This document shows, piece by piece, positions 3,001-34,810 of a DNA stretch of 35,953 nt. Position 1 is the stretch's first letter, and every line of letters starts with the position of its first letter. Made by a program: the position numbers and the translations under genes. The notes under the pieces are model-generated. The model ran no database searches and was not told where the DNA came from. It saw only the letters and a program-made list of their open reading frames with translations. The stretch covers positions 1 to 35,953 of the forward strand of contig CAIWCL010000206.1 of NCBI GenBank assembly GCA_903911205.1, written 5' to 3'. The stretch comes from an uncultured bacterium. Its GTDB lineage: Bacteria > Planctomycetota > Phycisphaerae > Phycisphaerales > SM1A02.

Positions 3001-4531
3001 CTACGGTGCCGCGGTCGACGCGATCACGGGTACGTTCTCGATCACCGCGTCGCTCACGGCTGCTCAGATCCAAGCGATCATGGGTAACGCATCGACCGCG
3101 GCGAACGTGACCATCGACCCGAACGGCTTCAACGCCGCCCAGCAGGCCGCGCTCTACTCGAACGCGCTCCTCTTGGCGACCACGGCAGCAACCCCGGGCG
3201 AGGAATTGACTGGTGAGACGATCGTCAAGCAGGGCGATGAGTTCGTCGTGGTGGTGAACGCCTCCGGCCTCACGACTGCGGCGGTCGGTGTCCAGGCGCG
3301 TCTCAACTTTGATTCGTCGCGCGTCCAGTTCGTGGCGGTCGAAGGCACCACGGCGATGCCGACGGTGATCTACGGCACGCAGGGCTCGTCGGGTAGCCAG
3401 TCGTACGTCACCTTCGCCACGGGTATCGATGTCTTCGACGACTCGTCGACCGGCATCACCAGCGGCGATGTGGCGCGCATCCGGTTCGTGGCGACGGCAG
3501 CGTTCTGCAACGCGACCGACATCGTCAGCCTCGCAACCTCGGGCTTCGCGAACAAGTTCGTGGCAAGCAGCACCAACCCGGCGCCAATCCCGGCGGTCGG
3601 AACCAACCTGATCGACGTCAGCTCGCTGAACAACCTCGCGTTCGCCAGCAACTGGTCGTCGAACCAGGCTCTCCCAGCCGATGCAGGCACGACCGCGGGC
3701 GCCTATGTGGCCAACCCTGGCGTGACGGCTTCGAACAACTGCTACTCAAGCGTCCCGGTGACTTTCGCCGTGACCTATCCGGATCTGTCGACGGGCACCA
3801 CGTGGCCGGCGCGCTTCCCGGTGGGCATCTCGACGGTCGTGTGGACTTCGGAAGACCTTGGCGGCAACATCATCACGTTGACCCGCACGGTTGAAGTCTT
3901 CAACTATCAGCTCATGACCATGGCTCCGCGGTACTTCATCGCGGCTGGTGCCTACGCCGCTGGCAACCGCACCATCACGGTGCGCCTGTCGGAAGACGGC
4001 CTCGCATCGAGCGAGCAAGCACAGGTCTTCGCGTTCAACGCGAGCGGCCAAGCGACCTCGGTCGACGTCCAAGTGCCGGTCAAGGCTTCGTACTCGTGCG
4101 TCAGCGTGAAGGACGATGATCGCTCGCTCGCGCGTGCAGCATCGGCCATCTCGGTGGTCGGAACGAAGTACGACGTGGCGTTCGCCACCGGTGGTGACGG
4201 TGCGATGAAGCTCGGTGATTCGAACGCAGACAACCTCGTCGACATCCTCGACTTCGGTGTCTACATCGCCAACCGGTTCCCAGCGAACGGCACGCGTTCG
4301 GACTACAACAACAACGGCATCGTCAACAACGTGGACTTCGCGATCTTTGCGACGAACTTCCTCCAGACGGGCGACACCTGTGCTGGCGGCTTCCTCGCTG
4401 GTCAGATGCCACGCGATCGCGTGTCGGTGCGTGAACTCCGTCGTCGCGGCATGGGCGAACTCATCGCCGCTGACATCAACGGCGATGGCTGGGTCGATTT
4501 GACGGACATCCAGCTCGCGATGCAGAACTGA
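2..4531 (+). CDS. Giant secreted repeat protein with cohesin-like, HYR-like and dockerin modules (5' end outside window)
   Basis: The reading frame is open to the left edge, so the start and any signal peptide are missing; about 1,509 residues are present. From about nt 440 to 3180 it is built from imperfect tandem repeats. The landmark 'KVD-x-I-x-N-L-x-L' recurs at nt 440, 593, 905, 1211, 1517, 1829, 2147 and 2483, giving a unit of 102-112 residues made of two ~51-residue halves. Each half pairs a strand-like VNAxGM segment with a short helix-like segment. After the repeats come a cohesin-like beta-sandwich (nt ~3230-3570; 'VQARLNFDSSRVQFVAVEG'), an HYR-like module (nt ~3615-3910), a further beta region, dockerin calcium loops (nt ~4210-4380; DSNADNLVDILDF and DYNNNGIVNNVDF), and a tail with VSVRELRRRG and DINGDGWVDLTD. 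The last third parallels the gene at 8659-11007. Probably an extracellular structural or adhesive protein; that role is inferred. Confidence 0.85.
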   Translation, partial: RTAVQAVVNGANAGNITAADFSSGRMVAVYNAMVALGSATLNGESINAPSAAASIAAFNALGASGKAVILGAINAGGFTSFTELATAAAGAYDRAVGRDLIAAGLTKENSIAQIQQAFTYAEDGEVLVNALGMSDTQLDAIDAGIVKVNVISNLTLTVAEAADQIGRLAGKAGDGTVTVNAASMITAQRAAVAGRIAKVTTGAISSLALDSTDLAATITALLGKSTNAVAVGSSMDSTKLSALAGGAAGLAADGVSGTLAIDVAVSNLDALLGKTSVDATVNVDATEFSTASKGVLSTRISKVDSIADLALDSNEDATEIGNLLSKATGATAVATDMIDVQLSALGATASALATDGVTGTLAITKDVANLDALLGKTAVAATANVNALGMSDAYLTVVSSKIAKVDEITNLSLTNVQSADEIENLLTEAVAAVANATGMDSAKLSKLGAGASAIAADGIAGTLAIDINVSSLDALLGKTKVAATVNVDATGFDAVAKGVLSGKISKVDAIANLALASSEDPTEITNLLSVATAAVVNATGMDYTQFNALGASAAIVNVAADGISGTFTITKDVTVIGAILGKTKIAATVTVNANGMSQPQLAEVSANITKVDTLSDVSVTSALTVEELSTLMSNPSTTNVFADATGMGADKLNVLAQFSSKLAANGVTGSVMITSSVTDTNLAAFLAKVDAAASVEVNASGMTATGLSAVAAQSTKVDSVYNLTLTKDQSSSEITTLLGLSVASASEGKAMALATATDMDAAKLSALGGSYTKLAADGITGDVLLVTGITDANITNLFSRIALAANVRVNGSGMGSTTLAILLTNAAKVDSAFNLALTNAQTAAELATLLGKSDVSSASAVATGMDSNVGGKLATLADNYTKFVSAGISGSISINSNLTPTQITNLLSKVSYAVAFTGGTTVAIDAQGMSAGQLAAIASAVSASGGTPADQASIFDVSNLTLTAGQSSTQIATLLNVTLPNEASIVATGMSQQMLAEVGSYGAAVDAITGTFSITASLTAAQIQAIMGNASTAANVTIDPNGFNAAQQAALYSNALLLATTAATPGEELTGETIVKQGDEFVVVVNASGLTTAAVGVQARLNFDSSRVQFVAVEGTTAMPTVIYGTQGSSGSQSYVTFATGIDVFDDSSTGITSGDVARIRFVATAAFCNATDIVSLATSGFANKFVASSTNPAPIPAVGTNLIDVSSLNNLAFASNWSSNQALPADAGTTAGAYVANPGVTASNNCYSSVPVTFAVTYPDLSTGTTWPARFPVGISTVVWTSEDLGGNIITLTRTVEVFNYQLMTMAPRYFIAAGAYAAGNRTITVRLSEDGLASSEQAQVFAFNASGQATSVDVQVPVKASYSCVSVKDDDRSLARAASAISVVGTKYDVAFATGGDGAMKLGDSNADNLVDILDFGVYIANRFPANGTRSDYNNNGIVNNVDFAIFATNFLQTGDTCAGGFLAGQMPRDRVSVRELRRRGMGELIAADINGDGWVDLTDIQLAMQN
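440..3180 (+). repeat. In-frame ~306-336 bp coding repeats (two ~51-aa halves each)
   Basis: The landmark aaggtc codons fall at 440, 593, 905, 1211, 1517, 1829, 2147 and 2483. The spacings are 153, 312, 306, 306, 312, 318 and 336 bp, so the unit is about 102 codons with a half-unit of 51 codons. Spacing is tightest in the middle (306 bp) and drifts toward the C-terminal end, as expected for an array whose central copies are youngest. Consensus features are a [N/D]A-x-GM turn, a leucine-rich stretch, KVD-x-I-x-NL-x-L, and E-I-x-x-LL. I do not recognise a named repeat family. Confidence 0.8.
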
Positions 4532-4570
4532 TCTGCAACGCGCGTAGGACAAGTGAGATTCAAAACCAAT

Positions 4571-4604
4571 CGGGCCCGCGGCGCATGCCGCGGGCCCGTT
4601 TCTT
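4571..4604 (+). terminator. Rho-independent terminator of the giant repeat gene
   Basis: A perfect 12-bp GC-rich stem (4571-4582 with 4587-4598) closes a 4-nt loop and is followed by TTTCTTT. It sits 40 bp after the stop codon at 4529-4531. Confidence 0.85.
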
Positions 4605-4633
4605 TGGAGAGATCGCGCGAAGCATGAACCCCC

Positions 4634-4714
4634 GTGAGCGTAAACCCCGTGAGCGTAAACCCCGTGAGCGTAAACCCCGAGATCGGAACCCCCGAGATCG
4701 GAACCCCCGAGATC
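4634..4714. repeat. Six-copy 15-bp tandem repeat in two homogeneous blocks
   Basis: Copies start at 4634, 4649, 4664, 4679, 4694 and 4709, an exact 15-bp period. The first three are gtgagcgtaaacccc. The next three are gagatcggaaccccc, with the last cut short. Only the 3' half of the unit (aaNcccc) is shared between the blocks. The array lies between the terminator of the upstream gene and a TTGACA box at 4722. No gene is evident in 4532-4925, which otherwise holds the terminator, this array and a leader with a palindrome. Confidence 0.9.
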
Positions 4715-4721
4715 ATCCGCC

Positions 4722-4727
4722 TTGACA
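4722..4727 (+). promoter_or_regulatory. Possible -35 box (TTGACA) for the gene at 4926
   Basis: A perfect TTGACA lies 8 bp after the end of the 15-bp repeat array. No good -10 hexamer is seen at the expected distance (4745-4750 reads tgtgag), so the promoter call is weak. If it is real, the transcript would have a leader of roughly 170 nt. Confidence 0.25.
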
Positions 4728-4859
4728 GAGTCCGTCCACGCGGTTGTGAGATGTGTGTGATGCGTATCAACTCGTCCGGAAATTGTGTTGTTCAGCGCAG
4801 CAACGCGCGTTCGTTATCCGGAGCACGCAATCTTGAAGTTGGAGTCGCTCGGCCGAATT

Positions 4860-4875
4860 CCCTTGCATGCAAGGG
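4860..4875. promoter_or_regulatory. Perfect 16-bp palindrome in the leader of the 4926 gene
   Basis: CCCTTGCATGCAAGGG is a perfect inverted repeat with no loop. It lies 50 bp before the GTG start at 4926 and is followed by a second short inverted repeat (4880-4892, agagt/actct). It could be a dimeric regulator site; no regulator is identified. Confidence 0.35.
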
Positions 4876-4925
4876 TTTGAGAGTCACACTCTGCGCACGG
4901 TTGTGATGGCGAGAGGAGAGGATTT

Positions 4926-5735
4926 GTGGGACCCATGTCTCAATTGATTTCGTCATGTCCAGCCTCCGCACGCGATGCACTGCACGCGAGGTGGCCGCAC
5001 GCAGCACGCGTACTCTGCGCGAGCGTCGCTGCAGCCATTGCGGGTCTGGCGCATGCCGACTCGCAAATCAACCTCAAGCTTGTAGGGCCGTCTGCGCCCG
5101 TCGCGGTGAAGCAAACAATCGATGTGAAACTTCGCGCCATAGGCGAGCCAAACTCGAGCCTCATCGGCGAGGGCTTTGTCGCCATCGATTGCATTCTCCG
5201 CTGGAACCCGAAGGATCTTCGACTCGTCGGGCTCTCAAGCGCGGGCTCGGTTCCGCTCTTCGGCTCGTACTTTCCGTCGCCAGCCAACGACTACACCGGC
5301 ATCAACGAGTCTTCGCCGCCGCAGGATGGTGATGCGCTCTACTACGCGCTCGCGCCACTTGGGAACCCTGTGCAGGTGTCGACCAGCGGCGTACAAGTGA
5401 CGACCTTCCGGTTTCGCGTGCTACGTCCGTTCGCGTCGACCACGGTCGAACTCGTGCCGACGCTGACCCGCACCGCGACCGCCGACACCGTCGTCTATGA
5501 CGGCACGGTGCCGGGGCTTGATGTGACCGGAACTCTGACCAATGCGGTTGTCGTGCAGGTTGTTCCTTGCCCGGCAGATCTTGACGGGAACGGCTCAGTG
5601 GACGCCAGTGACCTTGCGCTTTTGCTTGGGCAGTGGGGGACGATGGGCTCAGCTGATATCGATGGCTCCGGCGTCGTTGATGCCGGTGACCTTGCGCAGG
5701 TGCTCTCATCCTGGGGTAGTTGTCAGGGAACCTGA
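4926..5735 (+). CDS. Secreted cohesin-like protein with C-terminal dockerin
   Basis: 269 residues. The GTG start is chosen because AGGAG (4914-4918) lies 7 nt upstream; the in-frame ATG at 4935 would be too far from it. An N-terminal hydrophobic segment ends in GLAHADS (residues ~30-46), which looks like a signal peptide. Residues ~47-205 form a beta-rich domain of cohesin type ('VDVKLRAIGE', 'ILRWNPKDLRLVGL'). Residues ~214-265 form a dockerin with two canonical calcium loops, DLDGNGSVDASDL and DIDGSGVVDAGDL, each followed by a 'LxxWG' helix end. Only 15 bp separate it from the next gene, which has the same architecture, so the two are probably co-transcribed. Exported location is inferred from the signal peptide. 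The binding partner is unknown. Confidence 0.85.
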   Translation: MGPMSQLISSCPASARDALHARWPHAARVLCASVAAAIAGLAHADSQINLKLVGPSAPVAVKQTIDVKLRAIGEPNSSLIGEGFVAIDCILRWNPKDLRLVGLSSAGSVPLFGSYFPSPANDYTGINESSPPQDGDALYYALAPLGNPVQVSTSGVQVTTFRFRVLRPFASTTVELVPTLTRTATADTVVYDGTVPGLDVTGTLTNAVVVQVVPCPADLDGNGSVDASDLALLLGQWGTMGSADIDGSGVVDAGDLAQVLSSWGSCQGT

Positions 5736-5750
5736 AGAAAGCACAAGACC

Positions 5751-6698
5751 ATGAAGTCCTACGGAACCAAGATTCGAAATCTCTCGACCTCGATTGCGCT
5801 CGCAGGTTTGTCCGCCTCATCGGCGCTCGCGCAAACGAGTGCACTCGAATTGAGTACGCCTCGTTGTGCCCTTGTTGGTGACCAGATCGTGGTCGATGTG
5901 CGCATCGCGCCCGACGCTCCGGCGTGTGTCGGTATGCAGGCGGCGTTGAAGTACAACGCGTCTGTGCTGACCTTCCTCGGCGAAGAGCCGGGCGATCTGC
6001 CCTTTGACTTGCCGATTTACTTCCGGCACACGACGCTCGGAGGCAAGATCGATATGGCTGTCGGTATCACGCCGACCAACGCTCCAAGCTTTGGCAACGT
6101 CGTCGTCAAGCGCTTGCGATTCCAAGTCGCGGCGCCAGCGGAGACCTGCGTGGTCGACGGCCTCGTCGAGTTTCGCCGCGACAAACTCGTGCGGAATCTC
6201 ATCACGAACGAAGAAGGGGACCCAATCGTTCCCGCGCTCGTGTCGCTCAACGAGATGAACCTCGGCCCCACGCCCACGATTTCGATTCCTGCGTCGGTCT
6301 CTCTGCCGCCGGTCATCGGAACCATGTCGCTCCAAACTTCGGTTGGAAACGTGCTCGCCTCGGGGTGCGGCGAAGGGCTTCAGATCAGTTTCGTCCGCAG
6401 CGACGGGAAACTGACCACGACGGAACCATTCGACCGGATCGATAGCCCCGTCACGATCACGTGGACGGTGACCGATGAATGCGGCCGCTCGATGAGCGGC
6501 AACCAAACCGTCTCGGTCCAAGTGGGATACGGCGACCTTGACCAGAATGGCATCATCAACGCCGAGGATCTGGTCATTGTGCTCTCGAACTACAACGATG
6601 CGACCGCTGTTGGTGATGTCAATTCGGACGGCATCGTGAATGCCGAAGACATGGCGGTCATCTTGAGCGCGTGGGGACTCCCGAGCGGGATTCCTTGA
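5751..6698 (+). CDS. Secreted cohesin-like/HYR-like protein with C-terminal dockerin
   Basis: 315 residues. The start is ATG 5751 with a weak AGAAAG site upstream. The signal peptide ends near 'SASSALAQTS' (residue ~28). Residues ~30-165 are a cohesin-like sandwich ('VGDQIVVDVRIAPDAP', 'AALKYNASVLTFLGEE'). Residues ~175-260 resemble an HYR module ('PVTITWTVTDECGRS'). Residues ~262-312 are a dockerin with loops DLDQNGIINAEDL and DVNSDGIVNAEDM. It follows the previous cohesin/dockerin gene by 15 bp. Carrying both a cohesin-like and a dockerin module could allow head-to-tail chaining, but this is inference: the cohesin match is by pattern, not by a search. Confidence 0.82.
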   Translation: MKSYGTKIRNLSTSIALAGLSASSALAQTSALELSTPRCALVGDQIVVDVRIAPDAPACVGMQAALKYNASVLTFLGEEPGDLPFDLPIYFRHTTLGGKIDMAVGITPTNAPSFGNVVVKRLRFQVAAPAETCVVDGLVEFRRDKLVRNLITNEEGDPIVPALVSLNEMNLGPTPTISIPASVSLPPVIGTMSLQTSVGNVLASGCGEGLQISFVRSDGKLTTTEPFDRIDSPVTITWTVTDECGRSMSGNQTVSVQVGYGDLDQNGIINAEDLVIVLSNYNDATAVGDVNSDGIVNAEDMAVILSAWGLPSGIP

Positions 6699-6797
6699 GG
6701 CACTCGCTGCGTTGAGGCGGTGCAACGGGTCTGGGAGAGGGCACATCTCGTTTCGCGGTGAATGCTCTCCCGTTGATCTGCCGATAGCGAGGCCTGT

Positions 6798-8447
6798 ATG
6801 CAAGGCCCTTTTTCTCTCCGTCCCCATCTCTCGATCACGCGAAACGTCGTCCTGGGCTCACTTCTGGGTGTCTGTCTCAATGTTGGGGCGCTCGCAGCGT
6901 CCTCTCAAGACGGTCCGAGGGTCCCGGGTCGCATCGAAATCGTCGCCGCCGGCAAAGGTGTTGGCGGGGGTGCCAGCGGCGAGATCGGGGTCTGTGACCT
7001 CCGTGGAACTCCCCTTGACGAGGTCCAAGCGCGCCCCCGCGACGGGGGCTTCGATGATGACCCGGCCAAGCGCGCGTTGCGCCAGTACTCAACCCACGCG
7101 ATCGGCACCGGTGATTTTCGCGTCGAGGCGACGGTCATCCTTGAAGCGCTCGACGGGAAGGGTGCCGGCATCGTTTTCGATGGCGGCGTGGTCGAGTTCG
7201 ATGAGCCGACCGCTGCAGCGGTGCTCACCGGTTCACTCTTCGGCGGCGGTCGGCTTGCGCTCGATGAAGCGCGTCCAACATCGTTTCGGCTCGGTGCTCC
7301 TCTCGATATCTCGATCGTTCGGCAAGGTCGCGAGGTTGTGGTTTCCATCAATGAAGAGCCCGTTGGCTCGATCGGCATGGAAGGCTTCGCATTTGGCCGC
7401 ATCGGCTTCGACCTCGGCGGCGGACGCATGAAAGTCGTCGCCTGCTCCGTCGAGGGAGCGACGGAAACCGTACCGATGCCCCGCGCGGCATTCACCGGAG
7501 CTGATGGCGACGTCGACGAGTATCGCGACCCAACCGCGGCGAGCGACGGGAACACACTGCTTCTCGCGGCAATAGGTGTGGGCGTGCATCCCGACGGCAG
7601 CGATCGGACCTTTATCGCCTTGCGGTCCGCGGCGAAAGACGGTGCGCTCGGCGAGGCTCGATCGATCGAACAAGCAAATCCTGCGTTGGCGCAGTTGAAG
7701 CCTGATCTCGTCGTGCTTGGTCACGATGGGCAAGCGTGGCGGTTGTTGGTGCAAGAGGTCGCGCCACGACGGCTGACCAATTCAATCCGGCAGTTCCGCT
7801 CGCAGGATGGTGTTCGATTCGAGGAACTCGCGCCCATCACCGTGGATGCGCCAATGCAGCTTGTTCCGGCACCGATGCGTCGCGAGAGCGGTGCGGACGG
7901 AAAGCCGGTGCTGCGTGTTGGAGTCACGCGGGTTGTGGAGAAGGATGTACGCGCAGCCGTTCTCGCCTCCACCAGTGAGGCTCCATGGCAACTCACCGCC
8001 CTTGGTGAGCTTGCGAGTTGCAATCCGATGCTCCTCGACGGTGGTCGCGCGATTGTCCGAGATCCAAAGTCGCTCAAGCGGACGGTGGTCGGTGGCGACG
8101 CGGCGATCGAGGCGGTGCGGTTTGAGGGTGCTCCGCAGGCTGGTGCGCTGGTGGTCGCAGACGGCAATCGATTGGTCTTGGCGCAGTCGGACCCTGTGCA
8201 TCCGAACATGTTGCGTCGCATGGTCTCGTGTGATGGTGGCGCAACGTGGCGACGCGATACTCCCGTATGGGGAAGTCCGGCCGCGACCGCGAATGCGGTC
8301 CGAGTCGGGGAGGATGTTGTGGTCGTGTTCGAAGGCGGCGATACCGCACGGCGTCAACATGTTCTTCTGGTACGCGTCCCGTTGACGAATGAAGTCGCAC
8401 GATGTGTGCCAGTTCCTGCGACTTCGCCTGAAAAAGCCCCCGGTTGA
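6798..8447 (+). CDS. Secreted sialidase-like (Asp-box) protein with N-terminal lectin-like domain
   Basis: 549 residues with a signal-like N-terminus (hydrophobic 'VVLGSLLGVCLNVGALA'). Residues ~100-215 look like a LamG/concanavalin-type sandwich ('TGDFRVEATVILEAL', 'LDISIVRQGREVVVSINEE'). The rest resembles a sialidase/BNR propeller. One clear Asp-box, SCDGGATW, sits at residues 477-484; other blades are not obvious, so the catalytic status is unclear. The start has no Shine-Dalgarno site. A TAGCGA hexamer lies 7 nt before the ATG, at the same distance as the -10-like boxes of other genes here, but its last base is a poor match. It follows the cohesin/dockerin pair by 99 bp and could act on glycans or be a non-enzymatic propeller. 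Confidence 0.6.
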   Translation: MQGPFSLRPHLSITRNVVLGSLLGVCLNVGALAASSQDGPRVPGRIEIVAAGKGVGGGASGEIGVCDLRGTPLDEVQARPRDGGFDDDPAKRALRQYSTHAIGTGDFRVEATVILEALDGKGAGIVFDGGVVEFDEPTAAAVLTGSLFGGGRLALDEARPTSFRLGAPLDISIVRQGREVVVSINEEPVGSIGMEGFAFGRIGFDLGGGRMKVVACSVEGATETVPMPRAAFTGADGDVDEYRDPTAASDGNTLLLAAIGVGVHPDGSDRTFIALRSAAKDGALGEARSIEQANPALAQLKPDLVVLGHDGQAWRLLVQEVAPRRLTNSIRQFRSQDGVRFEELAPITVDAPMQLVPAPMRRESGADGKPVLRVGVTRVVEKDVRAAVLASTSEAPWQLTALGELASCNPMLLDGGRAIVRDPKSLKRTVVGGDAAIEAVRFEGAPQAGALVVADGNRLVLAQSDPVHPNMLRRMVSCDGGATWRRDTPVWGSPAATANAVRVGEDVVVVFEGGDTARRQHVLLVRVPLTNEVARCVPVPATSPEKAPG

Positions 8448-8560
8448 ATGGGAGAACGGTGCTGCCGAGTGCGCAGCGTCCGATAGAGCGCGCGTTACGG
8501 GCGATTTCGGGGTGCCTCGCCGCGCAAATAGAGCATCTTTTCCAATCGGGATCTCGCGAG

Positions 8561-8588
8561 TTGCTCACAAGTCGCCCGGGGTTATGGT
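8561..8588 (+). promoter_or_regulatory. Candidate promoter for the 8659 gene
   Basis: TTGCTC (8561-8566), a 16-bp spacer and TATGGT (8583-8588) predict a start near 8595 and a leader of about 65 nt that includes the GGAG site at 8647-8650. Confidence 0.4.
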
Positions 8589-8658
8589 CGAGGAGTCTTT
8601 CCGTCGTGCGCGTTTTGCGCGGAAGGTGCGGATCGTCACCGCCATTGGAGTTCCTGAA

Positions 8659-11007
8659 ATGACACTGCGGATCTTGACTCTTTCAGTCGTCGCTGCCGTT
8701 GCGAGTGCTTCGCACGCCGACTCCACGTACACCACCGGCTTCGAGAATTTCTCTGCTGGCGCTTTCGTTTCCGGTAGTCCGGCGACGCAAGGTGGGTGGG
8801 GTTGGCTCGCGAACTACAACATGGTTCCGACGGTGGTCGGCGCGCCCGCTGCGTCGGGCTCGCAAGCGCTCTCGATTCGGACGTATCCCGATGATGCCAC
8901 ACAGACCGCAAACTATGGCGTGATTGGTGGAACTCCGTCGGTTGCAGTCTCTGCGATCGGCGAAGTGGGGATGACGAGTTACTCAGGTACGCCAGTCATT
9001 GGCAATCGGTTGTCCTGCTCGTTCCTGCTTCGAACGCCCGCTGCCGGCACGCAACCAAACAGCGTGTACGCCACCTCTGACTACGGATGGCGGTTGGAGA
9101 TCCAGCCCGCGCGTCGCGAAGGCGATGTCGCCAATCGCAACGGACGTATCAACGTCGGCGACGGCGCCGTGCAGATGGCGGGTGTTCCGAATGGCGCGTA
9201 TGACATTCAGTACGACGGTTCGCTCGCTGGAGCGCCTGTCACGTCCCGTTCCGCGGCGGACAAGGTCTATCTTCAAATTGATTGGCCGTTCATCATTGGT
9301 CCTGAGACCGATGCTACGGATGCCGCTTGGAAGGTCGCTTTCATCAACGGCCTCGATTACGCAACGTGGTATCGCGTCGAGTACGACGTGCAGTACGTGA
9401 ACGGCACTGGCACCGCGATGTTTGACGGGGTCTCCCGATCCTGCGCGAACGACGTTGTCATCGTGCGCGTCTATGACATGGCTGGCACCCTGGTCGGCTC
9501 GATGACGGGTTCGACATGGGAAGCAGGCTTCCGTGCCGGTTCGTGGGGTTCGCCCACGTTCGCGATGGATTGCATGGGCGTGAAGGCGGCAAAGCCAGCG
9601 GGCGCGGGCCAAGAAATTGGCGTCATCGATCAATTCTCGATGACTGCGTACGAGGGCTTCTCTTCGCTTTCGCTCGTTGCGAGTGACACCATCATCCAAC
9701 CGACTGATCAGCTCGTCGTTGACGTGCAGTTGGAAGGGCAGGTTGAACCTGCCGTCGGCTCGCAGATCTTCTTGGACTTCGATACGTCGCGCCTGCAGGT
9801 CGATTCGATCACGGTCGCGCCCGGCAGCCCGTTCTCGCGCGAGATCTTCTCAAGTGTGAACAACACGACCGGAAAGATCATTTACGCGAGCGGTATCCCC
9901 GATTCGGCGAATGGATCGACCTCGGAACTCTCGGTTGCACGCGTGGTCTTCAACGTGGTGCCCGGGACAGAGGATTGCGACGCTTCAGGCCTCGTGAGCT
10001 TCACGCAAGGGCTCTCGGTTGGCACGCGTGTCGCTGCGTCGGGTGGCGTCAATCTCGTGCCTTCACTGACCGCGCTCGGCGACATCAAGATTGATGCCAC
10101 GGCTCCAGTCTTCGCTGGCTTGCCGACGGATGTTTCCATCGCGTCGGACGCGGGCACCATCGCGGGCGCGTACGTCGCTGCTCCGACGGTCACCGCGAGT
10201 GATGTCTGTGATGGCGCGACGACCGTGTCGCTCCTCGTGACCTACCCCGACAACACAACGACGACCACTTGGCCTGCGAACGGCGTCTTCCCGCAAGGAA
10301 TGACGACGCTCGCGTACTCGACGGTCGACGCGGCGGGAAACAGTGCCAGCGCGTCACGCACGATTACCGTGGCGAATCACCAATTGCTCGATGCCACGCT
10401 GACCCTGAACGGTGTCATTGCCGGCAATTCGACCCGTGCAACCCGCGTCAAGGCCGGGGCATCGACCCAAGTTGTCTCCGTCGCCATGACAGGTGCGAGC
10501 GGAGCGATCACCGGGCTCGCCGTGCCAGTCGCAGCGTCCTATCCGTGCGTCAGCGCGAAGGGCACGACGCACACGGTCACGGACACTGCGGCGACGAGTG
10601 TTGTTGGAACACGCTATTCGGCCAACTTCTCGCTCCGCCAAGGCGACTCGAACGATGACGATCTGATCGACATCCTCGACTTCGCGATTTACATCGGCGA
10701 CTTCGGTCCGGCCGGCGCGAGCGACGTTTCGAACTTCAACGCGGATAGCGTCGTGGGCACCGTCGACTTCACCTTTATCTCCATCGGCTTCCTCCAGACG
10801 GGTGAAGCGTGCGGTGGCGCGTTTACGGGCGGCGTGCCTCGCAAGGGGATCACCGTGCGTGAACTTCGTCGGATGGGTCTCGGCCACCTTGCTGCAGCCG
10901 ACCTCGATCGAAACGGCATCGTCAACCAGACCGACATGATGCGTCACCTTGCTGGGCAAGGCGTCGCAGAGCCGACCGCGTCGGACGAGCCCTCGGGACG
11001 TCGCTAA
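8659..11007 (+). CDS. Large secreted lectin-like/cohesin-like/HYR/dockerin protein
   Basis: 782 residues from ATG 8659. This start is preferred to upstream in-frame codons because GGAG (8647-8650) lies 8 nt before it and it opens directly into a signal peptide ending 'SASHADS' (~residue 21). Residues ~25-330 are a beta-rich N-terminal region ('TTGFENFSAGAFVSGS') that may be a jelly-roll. Residues ~336-477 are cohesin-like ('DTIIQPTDQLVVDVQLEG', 'IFLDFDTSRLQVDSI'). Residues ~480-574 are an HYR module ('FPQGMTTLAYSTVDAAGNS'). After another beta region come dockerin loops (~660-714; DSNDDDLIDILDF) and a tail with ITVRELRRMGLG and DLDRNGIVNQTD. The last ~400 residues parallel the giant gene at the left edge, so the two are paralogues with different N-terminal parts. 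Confidence 0.83.
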   Translation: MTLRILTLSVVAAVASASHADSTYTTGFENFSAGAFVSGSPATQGGWGWLANYNMVPTVVGAPAASGSQALSIRTYPDDATQTANYGVIGGTPSVAVSAIGEVGMTSYSGTPVIGNRLSCSFLLRTPAAGTQPNSVYATSDYGWRLEIQPARREGDVANRNGRINVGDGAVQMAGVPNGAYDIQYDGSLAGAPVTSRSAADKVYLQIDWPFIIGPETDATDAAWKVAFINGLDYATWYRVEYDVQYVNGTGTAMFDGVSRSCANDVVIVRVYDMAGTLVGSMTGSTWEAGFRAGSWGSPTFAMDCMGVKAAKPAGAGQEIGVIDQFSMTAYEGFSSLSLVASDTIIQPTDQLVVDVQLEGQVEPAVGSQIFLDFDTSRLQVDSITVAPGSPFSREIFSSVNNTTGKIIYASGIPDSANGSTSELSVARVVFNVVPGTEDCDASGLVSFTQGLSVGTRVAASGGVNLVPSLTALGDIKIDATAPVFAGLPTDVSIASDAGTIAGAYVAAPTVTASDVCDGATTVSLLVTYPDNTTTTTWPANGVFPQGMTTLAYSTVDAAGNSASASRTITVANHQLLDATLTLNGVIAGNSTRATRVKAGASTQVVSVAMTGASGAITGLAVPVAASYPCVSAKGTTHTVTDTAATSVVGTRYSANFSLRQGDSNDDDLIDILDFAIYIGDFGPAGASDVSNFNADSVVGTVDFTFISIGFLQTGEACGGAFTGGVPRKGITVRELRRMGLGHLAAADLDRNGIVNQTDMMRHLAGQGVAEPTASDEPSGRR

Positions 11008-28219: not shown

Positions 28220-30064
28220 TCAGCAGTCGCCCCATGCGCCGAGCATCACGGTGAGATCGTCGCCATCCACGGTGCCGTTGCTGTCGATGTCTGCTGCGCA
28301 GCCACCACTGCACGGGCCCCATGCGGCGAAGAGGATCGCGAGGTCCGCGCCGTTCACAGTGCCGTCCGCGTTCAGGTCGCTCGCGCAGAAGCCACCGACT
28401 GGATCGAGCACGATTTGCTGACGGACGGTGATCGGTCGCGCGATGATTGCTGCTGGATCGGCCGCTGCTTCCGCGGGCGAATACCAATCCACGCCGTAGG
28501 TCGTGATCGTGAGCGCCTTCGATTGCGCATCGACGTCGAACTCCGTCCAACCGTAGTGGTGCGCGGCCACAGGTCCACCCACAACAAACTGTGCGTTGAT
28601 CGCTGGATCCTGGATACCCGTCGGCGAGTAACCGTAGCCCGAGATCACGCCGTCGAGCACTTGCGCGATGAACGCATCTTTGCCCGAGTTCGGAAGTGAC
28701 TGGTAGAACGCGTACTGCGCTGCAGAGATCGCGCCGGTCGCAAGACCGAGTTGCGCGAACGTCGGGCCTGCTGGCGCGGAGTACGCGACCGAGCCCGTGA
28801 TGATTTCAAACATGCCCGTGAAGAGTTGCTGCGTTGGATTCGCGGGATTCGGAACAGTGATGTCGTTCACGATCGTGCCGTGGAAATCGGCGGTCACGAA
28901 GATGACGTTGCGAATACCGAGCGCAACGATTTGCGAGAGAAGATACGCACGCTCAGCGGCGTAGCCTTCCCAGCGATCTTCACCGGCGAGCGGGCCGAAA
29001 TTCTGCATCGGCACCGAGGTCATCACAAACTTCCAAGTGACGCCCGCAGCTTCCGCGCGCTGGAGATCTTGCAGCAGGAGCCCAAGTTGTGGGTAGCCGA
29101 GCATCGTGCGCGTCGGATTGAAAGACGCTTGGATGAACGCGCCGACTTGTGCGGGGTCGAATGGATTTGCAACCGGTGGAAGGCTCGCGTCGCGGAAGCT
29201 GCGCGCGTCGACCATAAACGTCGCAGCATCGCGGCCCCACTGGAACGAACGGTAGAGATTCGGACGGCCATCAACGCGTGGGTCGCCGAGCGTTGGCCAC
29301 GTCGACGGCACGATCGCGTTGTGCTCGACAAACGCTTGGAGGCCGTTCACATAGAGCGAGCCTTGGTTGTACCAGCCGGTGACGGCGTCGAACGCACCGC
29401 CATCGAAGTCGTTGGTGACTTCGTGATCGTCGATCATCGAGAACGTCGCCGTGCTCGCTGCGAGTTCACCCCACGGATCGATGCCGTGCGTGGGTTGGTA
29501 GTACTCCACGTGCTTTGCGCGATATTCATCAAGCGTCGTTGCTTGTGGAACCGGAACAGCTGGGCTCGCAACGTCGGCGTAGATGGTGTCGCCAAGCTTC
29601 ACGAAGTAATCGAGCGCACGCTCATCGGCGTTGAGGATCGCGTTGTAGATGCCGACATCGCCGCGCCAGTCGCCGGTCACGCCGAATCGGAGGCCTGCAG
29701 GCGCTGCATTCATACCGATCATCGCGGCGCCCGTGATGAAGGTCGCGGTGCGAACCTTCTTGCCATCGGTGACGCGCACGAAGTGTGGAACGCCGAGGTC
29801 AAGTCCGCTGAGGAAGATCTTGCCCGGAAGCAGCGCGTTGTCGACGACGATCGACTGCTGCGAGATGATGTTGGTGAACGCGGCATCGCGTGCAACTTCG
29901 ATCAGCACGGTGCCGGTGCCGGCCGCAGGGCGCACAAGAACAGCGGCGTTTCCGCCGATGACGTCACCAACGGCAACGCGGGGAAGCGCTTCGGATGGGA
30001 AACCCGCGTGGGCAGACGCGGTGAGCACGAGCGAGGCAAAGACAGTCGAGGTACGGAAACGCAT
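28220..30064 (-). CDS. PhoD-like secreted phosphatase with dockerin
   Basis: 614 residues from ATG 30064, which has GGAG 5 nt upstream. The signal peptide ends 'LTASAHAGF' (~residue 20). An N-terminal beta domain (~25-115, 'VLIEVARDAAFTNII') precedes the metallophosphatase core. Metal-ligand motifs are GVTGDWRG (D132), KLGDTIYAD (D159), SMIDDHEVTNDF (D212/D213/H214) and FVTADFHG. PhoD enzymes use calcium and iron and hydrolyse phosphodiesters and monoesters outside the cytoplasm. Residues ~560-614 are a dockerin with two regular loops, DLNADGTVNGADL and DIDSNGTVDGDDL. The 298-bp gap to the divergent gene at 30363 has no gene; it should hold the promoter, but I find no clear hexamers for this strand. 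Confidence 0.9.
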   Translation of the reverse strand: MRFRTSTVFASLVLTASAHAGFPSEALPRVAVGDVIGGNAAVLVRPAAGTGTVLIEVARDAAFTNIISQQSIVVDNALLPGKIFLSGLDLGVPHFVRVTDGKKVRTATFITGAAMIGMNAAPAGLRFGVTGDWRGDVGIYNAILNADERALDYFVKLGDTIYADVASPAVPVPQATTLDEYRAKHVEYYQPTHGIDPWGELAASTATFSMIDDHEVTNDFDGGAFDAVTGWYNQGSLYVNGLQAFVEHNAIVPSTWPTLGDPRVDGRPNLYRSFQWGRDAATFMVDARSFRDASLPPVANPFDPAQVGAFIQASFNPTRTMLGYPQLGLLLQDLQRAEAAGVTWKFVMTSVPMQNFGPLAGEDRWEGYAAERAYLLSQIVALGIRNVIFVTADFHGTIVNDITVPNPANPTQQLFTGMFEIITGSVAYSAPAGPTFAQLGLATGAISAAQYAFYQSLPNSGKDAFIAQVLDGVISGYGYSPTGIQDPAINAQFVVGGPVAAHHYGWTEFDVDAQSKALTITTYGVDWYSPAEAAADPAAIIARPITVRQQIVLDPVGGFCASDLNADGTVNGADLAILFAAWGPCSGGCAADIDSNGTVDGDDLTVMLGAWGDC

Positions 30065-30350
30065 ACGTTCTCCTTCAGTCGGATTGGATAGATCGAGCGG
30101 GCGGGAATAACGAAATGAAACGTGGCGCGTGCGTTCATTGCGTCGGCATTTCGTTGCGAAGCCGAGTGTCTTTGATCGGATTCGTGTGAAGAGATCCGAT
30201 GTTGCGCGTTGGTTGATGGCGCATCTGAGTGCGGCGCAGGGCCTTTGTTTCGTGGACGCGAACGCCACAAGTCGCCTCGCAAGCGAGTGTTGTGCAGCGC
30301 GATCGAAAGAAGTGCGAATAGGAATCAGCCTCTTCTCGTCACGCGCGCAG

Positions 30351-30362: not shown

Positions 30363-33062
30363 ATGAACGTCCGCGCTGCGACTGCTTACAGATCCTTCAT
30401 CATCTTTTTGCGTTGCGTCGGCAGCCCCGACACGCGATGCGTGTGGCTCGCGTGCGCCGTGCTTGCAAGCGTGTGCGCGCAGGTATTCGCGGCCGATTCG
30501 ATCCATCCGGCGACCGAGTCACGAGCGACCTTTGGAAACGTGCGCGATGAAATCGACGCTGCGCGTGCGCGAATCGCAGCGCAAGTGGCGCAGTACCACG
30601 ATCCGGTTGGGCCGCGCACGTGGATCGACGGCGCGCGCCTTTGGTACGTCGAATCATCGCGCGACGGCGCGCGGCGCTGGTGGCTCTGTGACGCGACGAA
30701 GACTGGTGCTGAAGCGCGCGTACCGCTCTTCGATCACGGGGCCGTGGCTGCGCTCGTCGCGGCGGTCGGTGATGCTGCTCCCGATCGACTTCATGATCGA
30801 CTTCCCGTGCGTGGTCTGAGCGTTTCGAACGATCGTGTGGCCATCGCACTGGAAGGGCGCGAACAACCCGTTGTTTGCGCGCTTGGTGGAGCGATCGTGG
30901 CTGTAAGTGATCCGACGGCGCGGGCGCTTCTCGAAACTTCACTGAAACCAGGAAAGCGACGGAGTCGTGGCCAAGGTGCGTCGGTGCATCTCACCTTCGA
31001 AAATCGCCTCGACGAAGCGGTCGAGATTTTCTGGATCGATCGCGCCAACGCCGAGCGTTCGTACGGTCGCATTGAAGCGGGAGATTCGAGGCGCCAGCAG
31101 ACCTTTGGCGGTCACGCGTGGTTTGTGCGCACGGTCATGGGTCGTGAACTCGGTCACACGGTCGCGAACGATCTCGACCGCGTGATCGTCATTGGCGACG
31201 CGCCGCCTGCGGAGCCGGAGCCCATCGATACACAGGATGGCCAACGCGAGACACAGTCCGAGGCTGAACTTCGTGTGCCTCGCGCGGAGAAGGCAGAAAG
31301 CGACGCGCCCACCAACGTGATTCCCCCGTACGAAGTTCGTGCGGAACGCGGCTCTTTGCAGTTCGTCGATGGTGCAGGACGTACGTTCTTTCAAGCGGAA
31401 GGCCCCGACGCCTCGCGTCGCGAAGCGAATGGTTTTACGGGAGGATTTTGGGTTTCGCCAACGCGCGATGCAGTCTTTGCGATGCGCGTCGATCGGCCCG
31501 AACAGCGACGCGTGACGATTATCGAGTCGACACCGAAAGATCAGTTGCAACCTCGGGTTCGATCGTTCGACTATGTCAAGCCAGGGGACCCGATCGATAC
31601 GTCGATCCCGCATCTCTTCCGCGTGGAACTCGACGCAAGCAGCGCGCTTGTTGCACGCGAAGTTCCGCTCGACCGCACGCTCTTCGCAACTCCGTGGTCG
31701 ATCGATCGCGTGCGCATGCTGCCGAATGGTCGCGAGGTTGCGTTCCTCTACAACCAACGTGGGCATCAAGTGGTGCGCCTTGTTGCGATCGATCTTGCAA
31801 CTGGCGCCGCCCGCAGGATCGCGGAGGAGTCGTCTGCGACGTTCGTCGATTGGACGAACAAGGTTTGGATGCACTGGCTCGACGAAACAGGCGAGTTGCT
31901 TTGGATGACTGAGAAAAGTGGCTGGAATCACATTGAACTCATCGATGTCGCTACGGGTTCGGTGAAGCGCCGCGTCACGGAAGGCGCGTGGAATGTGCGA
32001 CGCGTTGCACATGTGGACGAAGCGGCACGCACGATCGAGTTTGCGTTGATGGGGCGCGACGTGTCGCAAGATCCGTATCACGTGCATCACGCACGCGTTT
32101 CGATCGACTCCGGTGATCGTGTCATGCTGACGTCGGGAGATGGCACATGTCGCGTGGATTTCTCACCCGACCGCAGCGCGCTTGTGTGTGTACGCGCACG
32201 TGCCGATATGCCGCCGATCTACGAACTTCGCAGCGCGAAGGATGGCGCGTTGGTTGTTGAACTCGGACGCGCCGACGACAGTGCCATGCGCGCGGCGGGT
32301 TGGATCGCGCCTGAACCGTTCGTCGCGAAAGGTCGTGATGGCGTGACCGACATTTGGGGCGTCGTCTATCGCCCGACTGGCTACGACCCATCGCGAAAGT
32401 ACCCGGTCATCGAGAACATCTACGCGGGCCCGCATGGGCACCATGTGCCGAAGTGGTTTGAACTCGGCGGGCGCTCGCGTGAGTACGCTGAACTGGGCGC
32501 GATCGTGGTGCAGATTGATGGCATGGGCACGAATTGGCGCGGCAAAGCCTTTCACGATGTCTGCTGGAAAAACTTGAAAGACGCGGGTTTCCCTGATCGA
32601 ATCGCATGGATGCGCGCACTCGCCGCGCGTGATGCGTCGTTGGATCTTTCGCGTGTCGGAATCTTCGGCGGAAGCGCTGGCGGACAGAACGCGATGCGCG
32701 CGGTGCTCGATCATGCCGATTTCTACGACGTCGCCGTGGCCGATTGTGGATGCCACGACAATCGCATGGACAAGATTTGGTGGAACGAGCAGTGGATGGG
32801 TTGGCCCATCGACGAGAGTTACGCGAAGAGTTCCAACATGGAAGATGCTGCGAAACTCGGTGGAAAGTTGATGCTCGTTGTTGGGGCGCTCGATGACAAC
32901 GTCGATCCTGCGACCACGTTCCAGGTGGCGCAACGATTGATCGACGCGGGAAAGGACTTTGAGTTGCTCGTGATTCCCAACGCTGGCCACGGCGCAGCGG
33001 AAGGCGAATATGGCAACGAGCGTCGTGCGCAGTTTCTCTTCAGCGCTCTTCGCGAGAAGTAG
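30363..33062 (+). CDS. DPP-IV-family (S9B) peptidase with an inserted VHL beta-like domain
   Basis: 899 residues. A signal-like segment ends 'SVCAQVFAADS' (~residue 44). Residues ~60-740 form the DPP-IV-type beta-propeller, and residues ~640-899 contain the alpha/beta hydrolase with triad S771 (GIFGGSAGGQ), D844 (GALDDNVDP) and H876 (NAGHGAAE). Residues ~205-265 are a VHL beta domain: SVHLTFENR, then WIDRANAERSYGRI, then RRQQTFGGHAWFVR. Four residues that line the hydroxyproline pocket of human VHL (Y98, S111, H115, W117) have counterparts Y234, T247, H251 and W253. S9B enzymes remove dipeptides after proline, so a peptidase aimed at hydroxyproline-containing peptides is an attractive guess. 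That link is inference. The sulfatase gene follows 20 bp later. Confidence 0.88.
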   Translation: MNVRAATAYRSFIIFLRCVGSPDTRCVWLACAVLASVCAQVFAADSIHPATESRATFGNVRDEIDAARARIAAQVAQYHDPVGPRTWIDGARLWYVESSRDGARRWWLCDATKTGAEARVPLFDHGAVAALVAAVGDAAPDRLHDRLPVRGLSVSNDRVAIALEGREQPVVCALGGAIVAVSDPTARALLETSLKPGKRRSRGQGASVHLTFENRLDEAVEIFWIDRANAERSYGRIEAGDSRRQQTFGGHAWFVRTVMGRELGHTVANDLDRVIVIGDAPPAEPEPIDTQDGQRETQSEAELRVPRAEKAESDAPTNVIPPYEVRAERGSLQFVDGAGRTFFQAEGPDASRREANGFTGGFWVSPTRDAVFAMRVDRPEQRRVTIIESTPKDQLQPRVRSFDYVKPGDPIDTSIPHLFRVELDASSALVAREVPLDRTLFATPWSIDRVRMLPNGREVAFLYNQRGHQVVRLVAIDLATGAARRIAEESSATFVDWTNKVWMHWLDETGELLWMTEKSGWNHIELIDVATGSVKRRVTEGAWNVRRVAHVDEAARTIEFALMGRDVSQDPYHVHHARVSIDSGDRVMLTSGDGTCRVDFSPDRSALVCVRARADMPPIYELRSAKDGALVVELGRADDSAMRAAGWIAPEPFVAKGRDGVTDIWGVVYRPTGYDPSRKYPVIENIYAGPHGHHVPKWFELGGRSREYAELGAIVVQIDGMGTNWRGKAFHDVCWKNLKDAGFPDRIAWMRALAARDASLDLSRVGIFGGSAGGQNAMRAVLDHADFYDVAVADCGCHDNRMDKIWWNEQWMGWPIDESYAKSSNMEDAAKLGGKLMLVVGALDDNVDPATTFQVAQRLIDAGKDFELLVIPNAGHGAAEGEYGNERRAQFLFSALREK

Positions 33063-33082: not shown

Positions 33083-34810
33083 ATGCCGATTCAACGACTA
33101 CGCGCGACGCTCTTCGCGATCATCCGTTCGTTCGGGTTTCTGTGTGCGAGTTTCGGTGCGCTCGTGCTGATCGCAGTCAGCGAGACAGCGGTGCTTGCGC
33201 AGACTGCGCCTGACACGGCGTCGGCAGTATCGACATCTGTCTCGTCCACGCGTCGTCCCAACATTCTCTTCATCATGTCGGATGATCATGGGAAGCAGGC
33301 GATTTCGTGCTATGGCGCGACGGCCGCACCCGGCCTCGTGTCAACGCCGGGAATCGACCGTCTTGCGCGCGAAGGCATGCGCTTTGATCGCGCGAGTGTG
33401 ACGAATGCGATTTGCGGCCCATCTCGCGCGGTGATGCTGACGGGGAAGCACAGTCATCTCAACGGCTTCGCAACGAACGATCAGAATTTTGACGGCACGC
33501 AGCAGACATTTCCGAAGTTGTTGCAATCCGCGGGATATCGCACCGAAGTCATCGGGAAGTGGCATCTTGAAAGCGATCCGACGGGCTTCGATCACTGGGA
33601 TGTCCTCGTCGGGCAGGGCGACTACTGGAATCCGACGTTCATCGTTGATGGCGCACGCACCAAGCGCGAGGGACATGTCACCGACATCATCCATGCCAAC
33701 GCGCTCGAGCGATTGCGTGCGCTCGCGCCCGCGGCGAAGGATGGCAAGCCGTTCGCGATGCTTGTTCATCACAAAGCGCCGCACCGCAACTGGATGCCGA
33801 CGGCGCGACATCTCAATCTCTTCAAAGATGATGAGATTCCGCTTCCTGCGACATTCTTTGATCGTTACGAAGGTCGCAGTCGCGCGAGTTCGATGCAGAC
33901 GATGCAAGTCGACCGCGATCTCGCGTGGGAGTACGACCTGAAAGTGCCTGCGCGCGAGCTCTTTCCCGATCGCAAACTGGACGGACTTGATTCGTGGATG
34001 CAGCGCGAAATCGAGCGGATTCCAGGCGAAATCCAGCGCGCGATCGTGGAGGCATATCGCGATGAGAATCGAAAGCTCATGGAGCGCTACTCGCGCATGA
34101 AGCCGAAGTCGCTCGCAGAGTGGCGCTTCCAACGCTACGCGAAGGACTATCTCCGCACGGCGCAGGGCGTCGATGACTCGGTCGGCGGCATCCTCGAAGA
34201 ACTCGACCGACTCGGGCTCGCGGAGAACACGATCGTCGTCTACACGAGCGATCAAGGCTGGTTCCTCGGCGAGCACGGGTGGTTCGACAAGCGTTGGATG
34301 TACGAAGAGAGTTTCCGCATGCCGCTTGTCGTGCGTTGGCCTGCGCGCGTTCCGGCGGGAGCAACGTCGGGCGCGTTGGTGCAGAACCTTGATTTCGCGC
34401 CGACGTTCCTCGCGGCGGCGGGCGTTTCGGTTCCCGCCGACATGCAGGGGAAGAGCATGCTGCCGCTCCTCGCGGCAGGCAGCGCGACCGACAAGCCGTT
34501 CCGTGACGCGGTGTACTACCGCTTCGAAGAGTCGAAGGGTTCGCATACGGTGCCGCGCCACGAGGGCGTCGCAACCGATCGCTGGAAGCTGATTCGGTTC
34601 CTTGATCTGATCGATCCGACGACGGGCGAGCGTACCCTCGAACTTTACGACCTTGCCGCAGATCCCGACGAACTTCGAAGCCTTGTGGGCGACCCGAAGC
34701 ACGCGGAGTCCCTGCGAGCGATGACGCAGAAACTTGAGGCGATCCGAGCGCAGTACCACGTCGACGTCCCACCTGCGGGAAATTCAGCTTCAGCACCGGC
34801 GACCCCTTGA
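33083..34810 (+). CDS. Secreted type I sulfatase (formylglycine-dependent)
   Basis: 575 residues. The N-terminal hydrophobic segment is a signal peptide ('FGALVLIAVSETAVLAQT'). The alkaline-phosphatase-fold core starts RPNILFIMSDDHG with metal ligands D67 and D68. The sulfatase signature is ICGPSRAVMLTGK: C111-x-P-S-R, where the cysteine is converted to formylglycine by a maturase not in this window. GKWHLE and TSDQGWFLGEHG complete the active site. The C-terminus 'LYDLAADPDELRSL' is typical of glycan sulfatases. It removes sulfate esters from an extracellular substrate, probably a polysaccharide. It follows the VHL/S9B peptidase by 20 bp. A pair removing both peptide and sulfate would suit proteoglycan- or glycoprotein-like substrates, which is inference. 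Confidence 0.92.
   Translation: MPIQRLRATLFAIIRSFGFLCASFGALVLIAVSETAVLAQTAPDTASAVSTSVSSTRRPNILFIMSDDHGKQAISCYGATAAPGLVSTPGIDRLAREGMRFDRASVTNAICGPSRAVMLTGKHSHLNGFATNDQNFDGTQQTFPKLLQSAGYRTEVIGKWHLESDPTGFDHWDVLVGQGDYWNPTFIVDGARTKREGHVTDIIHANALERLRALAPAAKDGKPFAMLVHHKAPHRNWMPTARHLNLFKDDEIPLPATFFDRYEGRSRASSMQTMQVDRDLAWEYDLKVPARELFPDRKLDGLDSWMQREIERIPGEIQRAIVEAYRDENRKLMERYSRMKPKSLAEWRFQRYAKDYLRTAQGVDDSVGGILEELDRLGLAENTIVVYTSDQGWFLGEHGWFDKRWMYEESFRMPLVVRWPARVPAGATSGALVQNLDFAPTFLAAAGVSVPADMQGKSMLPLLAAGSATDKPFRDAVYYRFEESKGSHTVPRHEGVATDRWKLIRFLDLIDPTTGERTLELYDLAADPDELRSLVGDPKHAESLRAMTQKLEAIRAQYHVDVPPAGNSASAPATP

Follow-up and report, generated by a model that had tools for sequence, protein, structure and literature searches.

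The window analysed here, a stretch of 35,953 nucleotides, is an entire contig (C206; CAIWCL010000206.1) of a 3.87 Mb planctomycete genome in 393 contigs (GCA_903911205.1). At 30363..33062 on the + strand it carries an open reading frame with an ATG start for a protein of 899 amino acids, probably secreted, in which Pfam and an AlphaFold2 model place a VHL domain on an S9B-like peptidase. Our main finding is that this domain, as judged from sequence profiles and predicted structure, is a true VHL β domain in which the residues of the hydroxyproline (Hyp) pocket are kept, and that related VHL-bearing S9 enzymes (called VHL-S9 below) are linked in the genome to Hyp catabolism, a linkage that is new here. 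Sequence, models and analogy together make it fairly probable that the protein is a secreted or periplasmic peptidase of Hyp-peptide utilisation, with the VHL domain as its substrate reader. A previous reading of the same DNA, called the original prediction below, had proposed a VHL β-like domain at about residues 205–265 of a peptidase aimed at Hyp peptides, and had suggested a search with the VHL profile PF01847 and a survey of S9B proteins for the same insertion.

The VHL domain

In the Pfam scan, PF01847 matches residues 205–257 with 24.3 bits against a curated cut-off of 21, and a six-frame search with the same profile gives 28 bits (E 6.8e-6), the sole match in the window genome. Among 201 relatives (window genome counted), 37 exceed the cut-off of the profile, as do 56 of 392 genomes sampled across the phylum, while the six-frame search of 14 control genomes gave no match. 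A model of residues 186–287, built with 57 bacterial sequences, has a pLDDT of 91.7 and a pTM of 0.83. In a Foldseek search with this model, VHL entries make up all 50 matches listed (best E 8.6e-7), and VIA-align places model residues 14–102 on residues 63–162 of human VHL with a Z of 12.6 and a root-mean-square deviation (rmsd) of 2.6 Å over 88 aligned residues. The domain suggested in the original prediction is thus borne out by both profile and predicted fold. With seven strands, predicted at 207–277, it would cover approximately residues 195–279 (30945..31199, + strand).

It should be noted that a phmmer comparison with human VHL as a single sequence is not significant (E 0.84–0.99), a T-cell receptor chain ranking above VHL. 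This comparison was therefore not used as evidence, and the case rests instead on the profile, the fold and the family. It could be taken to mean that the resemblance is due to chance or over-calling and that no true VHL domain is present. However, the profile counts in relatives and controls, the independent fold match and the conservation of the pocket over several phyla make this extremely improbable.

According to the excerpted text of PMC9528729, the Hyp site of human VHL consists of W88, Y98, H110, S111, H115 and W117, with contacts from the hydroxyl to Ser111 and His115, from the carbonyl to Tyr98 and from the amide to the backbone of His110. In the phmmer alignment, these residues correspond to W224, Y234, Q246, T247, H251 and W253 of the window protein, and because the alignment is ungapped across the pocket, in one register, they can be regarded as counterparts. 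Y234, T247, H251 and W253 had already been named as such, correctly, while the fifth pocket residue, W224, had been overlooked.

The conservation of these positions was followed in 80 aligned domains, that is, the window protein and 79 VHL-bearing named relatives. W224 (31032..31034, + strand, as are all the following) is Trp in 80/80, and Y234 (31062..31064) is Tyr in 79 and Phe in one. For the pair Q246–T247 (31098..31103), position 246 is His in 66 domains, the window having Gln, and position 247 is Thr in 77 and Ser in three; for H251 and W253 (31113..31121), His is found in all 80, and Trp in 78 with Phe in two. Five of the six human pocket positions are thus kept in the window protein, if Thr for Ser is counted as kept. 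The six columns of lowest entropy are N214 (80/80), W224, H251, Y234, W253 and T247, which include all five pocket side chains. The remainder of the domain is divergent, 52 of 56 alignment rows being 22–41% identical to the window domain.

Distribution of the S9 branch

A one-per-species genome scan, using motifs from the S9 alignment, yielded at least 542 relatives, of which the 80 most similar ones were retained. The VHL domain is present in 79 of these best 80, a figure that is favoured by ranking according to likeness to a VHL-bearing query. Sorted by hand according to record title, the 80 comprise 46 Planctomycetota, 26 Verrucomicrobiota, 3 Armatimonadota, 1 Abditibacteriaceae, 1 labelled Klebsiella and 3 others. 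Of 30 loci fetched from a sample of Verrucomicrobiota, 26 match VHL. The survey proposed in the original prediction thus found the same insertion widely, and VHL is often present in this S9 branch, itself widespread, rather than being peculiar to one protein. The locus labelled Klebsiella (L153) comes from a metagenome-assembled genome named Klebsiella pneumoniae; since its S9 groups with Verrucomicrobiota, this is probably a mislabelled bin.

Members of the branch without VHL also exist. In a tree of the S9 part (85 rows, L167 being dropped as it has no trimming motif, and with many weak forks), four VHL-less rows are scattered, each at a place of its own between VHL-bearing rows. The simple reading of this pattern would be repeated loss, gains being the alternative. 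L080, which has Ns in its sequence, was left unscored. Among the matches listed, plasmid-borne relatives of the branch bear no annotation beyond 'S9 family peptidase' or 'DPP IV N-terminal domain-containing protein'. VHL is also absent from three plasmid-borne relatives (Sinorhizobium, Sphingomonas, Granulicella), and the local profiles described below detect no Hyp genes within 12–14 kb of these three.

The host enzyme

The AlphaFold2 model of the full-length protein has a pLDDT of 86.8 and a pTM of 0.80. Its best VIA-align match is 5olj, a bacterial DPP4 (Z 32.1, rmsd 6.8, 597 aligned), with DPP8/9 also among the best. Pfam assigns residues 361–611 (31443..32195, + strand) to the propeller (DPPIV_N) and residues 709–890 (32487..33032, + strand) to the α/β-hydrolase catalytic domain (Peptidase_S9). 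The latter contains the catalytic triad S771, D844 and H876, which had been named in the original prediction and is invariant in 81/81 rows. The predicted model shows the VHL β domain positioned in the N-terminal propeller region, flanked by early strands and by a disordered linker (residues 282–317, 31206..31313, + strand, pLDDT <50), after which further strands follow.

The active-site pocket, on the other hand, differs from that of the S9B enzymes. The S1 proline pocket of DPP4, which we take to be Y631, V656, W659, Y662 and Y666, aligns with A772, C797, N800, D803 and W807 (32676..32783, + strand), each invariant in 81/81 branch rows. At the same positions, six aligned S9 paralogues have Tyr in 5, Val in 4, Trp in 4, Tyr in 5 and Tyr in 5 cases, respectively. 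S9B dipeptidyl peptidases also have a double-Glu motif that anchors the N terminus of the peptide. The corresponding WVYGEE, located just ahead of the DPPIV_N part, is present in 5/6 paralogues and in 0/81 branch rows; a Glu pair does occur in a shorter nearby loop in L195 (YSEEL) and L151 (YYEEP).

Since WVYGEE is absent and the aromatic S1 pocket is replaced, post-proline dipeptidyl activity is not inferable from the family. In terms of sequence and model, the enzyme is S9B by fold, without the hallmarks of a post-proline dipeptidyl peptidase. The original prediction had reasoned from a host family that cuts after proline, and this argument should be dropped. The polar S1 pocket of the branch might instead suit Hyp.

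Gene neighbourhoods and co-occurrence

We now turn to the genes around the VHL-S9 loci, which were surveyed in 80 named loci by means of local profiles made from relatives with annotation, a limit of 6 kb being used for the racemase. A racemase-family gene, homologous to 4-Hyp epimerase, lies within this limit of VHL-S9 in eight of the loci (L151, L161, L188, L189, L195, L212, L219 and L222). By phylum, these clusters amount to 7/26 Verrucomicrobiota and 1/3 Armatimonadota loci. Seven of the eight also have a FAD (D-amino-acid) dehydrogenase and seven a DHDPS-family gene, and a homologue of M24 aminopeptidase P is found in 5/80 loci. According to NCBIfam, the racemase-family proteins are nearest to 4-hydroxyproline epimerase. 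Assuming a single racemase in a genome of 5 Mb and a stretch of 14 kb, 0.22 adjacencies would be expected by chance in 80 loci, compared to the 8 observed.

Several of these genes have abutting frames, namely racemase and S9 in L188 (position 5785), FAD dehydrogenase and S9 in L195 (5587), aldehyde dehydrogenase (ALDH) and S9 in L189 (5830), and S9 and M24 in L216 (3999). The order in L222 (Verrucomicrobium sp. BvORR034, 2399–10988) is DHDPS, M24 aminopeptidase P homologue, 4-Hyp epimerase homologue, VHL-S9, POT peptide symporter and D-amino-acid dehydrogenase homologue. Here the oligopeptide:H+ symporter is over its cut-off, and the segment is a candidate Hyp-peptide utilisation cluster. In the portions of the two papers available, DAAO, DHDPS and ALDH neighbours are given as a signature of 4-Hyp epimerases (PMC4113996), and 3-Hyp enzymes are described as clustering with them (PMC5144071). 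In L161, a classical S9 with WVYGEE (8549–10633) sits between VHL-S9 and the Hyp-type genes, so two S9 peptidases that complement each other may be present in this cluster.

As a control, S9 paralogues of the window's family were searched at 20 loci (three of them truncated by contig ends), and none of these loci matches any of seven profiles, VHL included. Because this control is not matched to the Verrucomicrobiota clusters, paralogues in the survey genomes were compared as well. This was done by hand for 40 of these 80 genomes (12 had been picked for having a match), with paralogues told by frame length; Pro_racemase is over its cut-off in 25 of the 40, mostly with one copy each. Only a single one of the 18 S9 paralogues has a racemase at a distance of 6 kb or less. 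A second sample consisted of 188 genomes of one Verrucomicrobiota class, 38 of them with the S9 branch. Pro_racemase is present in 22 of the 38 vs 19 of the 150 without the branch (p 3e-8), and lies within 6 kb of S9 in 4 of the 22, three besides the seed. In these three loci (L315, L316 and L317), VHL, racemase, DHDPS and FAD dehydrogenase occur together in all cases, with ALDH in one.

The same association can be seen at the level of whole genomes. Among the 201 relatives, Pro_racemase is found in 26 of 37 VHL-positive and 33 of 164 VHL-negative genomes (Fisher 1e-8), and in 15/24 vs 31/161 when the window's genus is left out (p 2.8e-5). For the 81 genomes with listed sizes, the counts are 18/25 with the S9 branch vs 11/56 without (p 1e-5), or 6/10 vs 10/55 without the window's genus (p 0.011), genome size differing little. 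A urease control was over cut-off in 5/201 relatives, too rare for comparison. As the genomes are not independent, we regard the co-occurrence as supportive only. In the window genome itself, an epimerase-family gene on another contig adjoins DHDPS and ALDH genes, which makes Hyp catabolism in this organism plausible from the gene content.

VHL-less members of the branch are also found in genomes with the racemase, so part of the Hyp link belongs to the S9 branch as such. One can consequently consider an alternative in which the S9 enzyme deals with peptides containing Hyp or Pro by means of its own recast S1 pocket, the VHL domain being only structural or regulatory, for example as a gate or an oligomer contact. 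The S1 change is indeed present in the VHL-less L150, L084, L087 and L088, and several VHL-less members occur together with Pro_racemase. However, conservation in this otherwise divergent domain is highest at the pocket residues, and a VHL-bearing enzyme of another fold sits in a Hyp cluster (see below). We consider this alternative distinctly unlikely.

Other bacterial VHL hosts

The VHL domain is also carried by other bacterial proteins. In Planctomycetota it is found near the C terminus of HExxH proteins of ca 400 amino acids, with weak Pfam likeness to M90/ATLF metallopeptidases, and further hosts are sulfatases, a SASA-type esterase, LRR proteins, a kinase with MORN repeats and an F5/8-type-C protein. 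The pocket is complete in 115/117 S9-borne, 11/15 HExxH-borne and 7/19 other domains, counts that come from rough motif sorting and de-duplication, some of the 'others' being S9 fragments. At L276, one of 10 HExxH loci, a planctomycete HExxH-VHL gene stands beside genes for a GntR regulator, DHDPS, a 4-Hyp epimerase homologue and DAO. This gene arrangement, a single case from the window's phylum, is the best hint that it is VHL itself, and not just the S9 branch, that follows hydroxyproline. As the S9 loci of Planctomycetota are without clusters, the link in this phylum rests on the co-occurrence and on L276.

Some further arrangements were observed. Divergent VHL-like N-terminal domains occur on HExxH proteins adjoining VHL-S9 in L219 (7758–11279) and L164 (9203–10927), with local-profile E values of 2.5e-5 and 1.3e-4, respectively, and no Pfam VHL match. 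Adjoining pairs of VHL-tailed genes are present in L131, L133, L139, L141, L142 and L143, either LRR-VHL with SASA-esterase-VHL or paired sulfatase-VHL; because their pockets are often without the H115 counterpart, they may read another ligand. In the planctomycete L140 (2433–4154), a serine/threonine kinase with MORN repeats has a C-terminal VHL domain.

A number of observations weigh against Hyp-peptide utilisation as the role of the window protein. Within the pocket, the position of human H110 is Gln. No racemase lies within 6 kb in any of the 46 Planctomycetota loci, nor was one detected at 10 Planctomycetota VHL-S9 loci with flanks of up to ca 8 kb, some overlapping the named loci, and the local profiles detect no Hyp gene on the window contig. 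All six epimerase homologues that were scored fall under the equivalog cut-offs (254–439 bits vs 442–450), that of the window genome having 254 bits vs a cut-off of 450. The one S9 paralogue with a racemase nearby belongs to the VHL-S9 cluster of L161. To these can be added the VHL-less members in racemase-bearing genomes, and the sulfatase-borne domains, where the full pocket is kept in 0/12 and position 251 is Ala in 8/12.

Taken together with the variety of hosts and with the 72 of 80 S9 loci, all 46 from Planctomycetota among them, that have no racemase within 6 kb, the sulfatase result could also be explained by VHL being a general substrate- or surface-binding module, comparable to a carbohydrate-binding module. 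Its ligand would then be another proline-like or polar group or a glycan, and the Hyp clusters would reflect a loose association with protein scavenging. On the other hand, the pocket is kept almost throughout in S9 enzymes and mostly in HExxH proteins, which are the two peptidase types found in Hyp clusters. A general module is for this reason unlikely in our view, and Hyp-peptide utilisation is retained as the preferred reading.

Proposed function

From the pocket analogy and the gene neighbourhoods of the relatives, Hyp is the best-supported ligand, and the enzyme is probably a peptide-cutting step of Hyp utilisation. Its substrate might be collagen, extensin or algal wall material. The suggestion of the original prediction that the peptidase is aimed at Hyp peptides can therefore be kept as far as it builds on the VHL domain, its pocket, the S9B-like fold and the linkage of the relatives to Hyp genes, but not as far as it builds on post-proline cleavage.

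In the mechanism that we propose, the VHL domain would bind trans-4-hydroxyproline in peptides. By analogy with human VHL, the Hyp hydroxyl would contact T247 and H251 and the carbonyl Y234, with the ring placed among W224 and W253. The domain could in this way capture or select Hyp-rich chains for cleavage. The resulting peptides would be trimmed, with aminopeptidase P taking part in some clusters, and then taken up, after which Hyp would be converted to 2-oxoglutarate via 4-Hyp epimerase, D-amino-acid dehydrogenase, DHDPS-family deaminase and aldehyde dehydrogenase. More speculatively, the polar Asn/Asp S1 pocket might itself fit Hyp, or another polar residue, instead of Pro.

A wider proposal, which we put forward tentatively and hold to be possible rather than probable, is that bacterial VHL is an old, mobile module by which secreted peptidases of Planctomycetota, Verrucomicrobiota and Armatimonadota bind Hyp peptides and which works with Hyp-catabolic operons, and that it was the source of the VHL of metazoan oxygen sensing. 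The S1 pocket of this S9 branch would then also have been recast for Hyp, making it a Hyp-dedicated peptidase.

Other features of the window

Residues 1–44 (30363..30494, + strand) form a hydrophobic, signal-peptide-like stretch, read by eye, with predicted helices at 2–18 and 22–45. The peptidase is thus probably secreted or periplasmic, as far as can be read from the sequence. The Pfam scan at E 0.001 returned only VHL β, DPPIV_N and Peptidase_S9, with no VHL α domain or elongin box.

The adjoining downstream gene (33083..34810, + strand) encodes a sulfatase, as had been stated in the original prediction, with matches to PF00884 and PF16347; it is given for context and is not evidence of function. 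Upstream, on the opposite strand (28220–30268, − strand), Pfam identifies a PhoD-like phosphatase, which has a weak C-terminal dockerin-like stretch (21.0 bits vs a cut-off of 22.9). A search of a viral structure library gave nothing useful.

Comparison with known systems

VHL is regarded as a component of oxygen sensing in animals. In the library searched, the papers listed include no report of an architecture combining VHL with an S9 peptidase; PF01847 is named in one paper, on Toxoplasma. A survey of the origin of VHL lists metazoans, one choanoflagellate and ascomycetes, with no bacterial VHL named in the excerpt consulted (PMC9618697). If the proposed function is correct, recognition of Hyp by the VHL fold would be used outside HIF signalling, through a bacterial pocket kept across phyla, a large S9 branch would obtain a function, and a peptidase step would be added to Hyp utilisation. 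Binding reagents or proteases specific for Hyp, applicable to collagen and to glycoproteins rich in hydroxyproline, could also result.

With metazoan pVHL, the substrate receptor of a Cullin-2 E3 ligase, the window protein shares the β-sandwich fold and a pocket of Trp, Tyr, Ser/Thr, His and Trp in one register. It differs in having no α domain or elongin box that could be found, a peptidase host with a signal-peptide-like start, Thr for S111, Gln for H110 and an identity of ca 20% in the structural alignment. With the S9B dipeptidyl peptidases, represented by DPP4 (5olj) and prolyl tripeptidyl aminopeptidase (2d5l), it has in common the propeller, the α/β-hydrolase domain and the Ser/Asp/His triad, whereas it is without WVYGEE, has an S1 pocket of A/C/N/D/W and carries VHL in the N-terminal propeller region.

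The clusters of the relatives resemble the bacterial L-hydroxyproline clusters of PMC4113996 and PMC5144071, for which the available parts of the papers describe 4-Hyp epimerase, DAAO-family dehydrogenase, DHDPS-family deaminase, ALDH and cis-3-Hyp dehydratase, with no mention of VHL in those parts. To these, the relatives' clusters add a VHL peptidase, and in some cases aminopeptidase P, as a putative supply step. A further parallel is the collagen-utilisation cluster of Colwellia (PMC7883544). In the sections of that paper at hand no VHL is named, and an M9 collagenase takes the place at which VHL-S9 stands in the relatives; as in the clusters described here, peptidases are joined to genes for Hyp epimerase and D-Hyp dehydrogenase.

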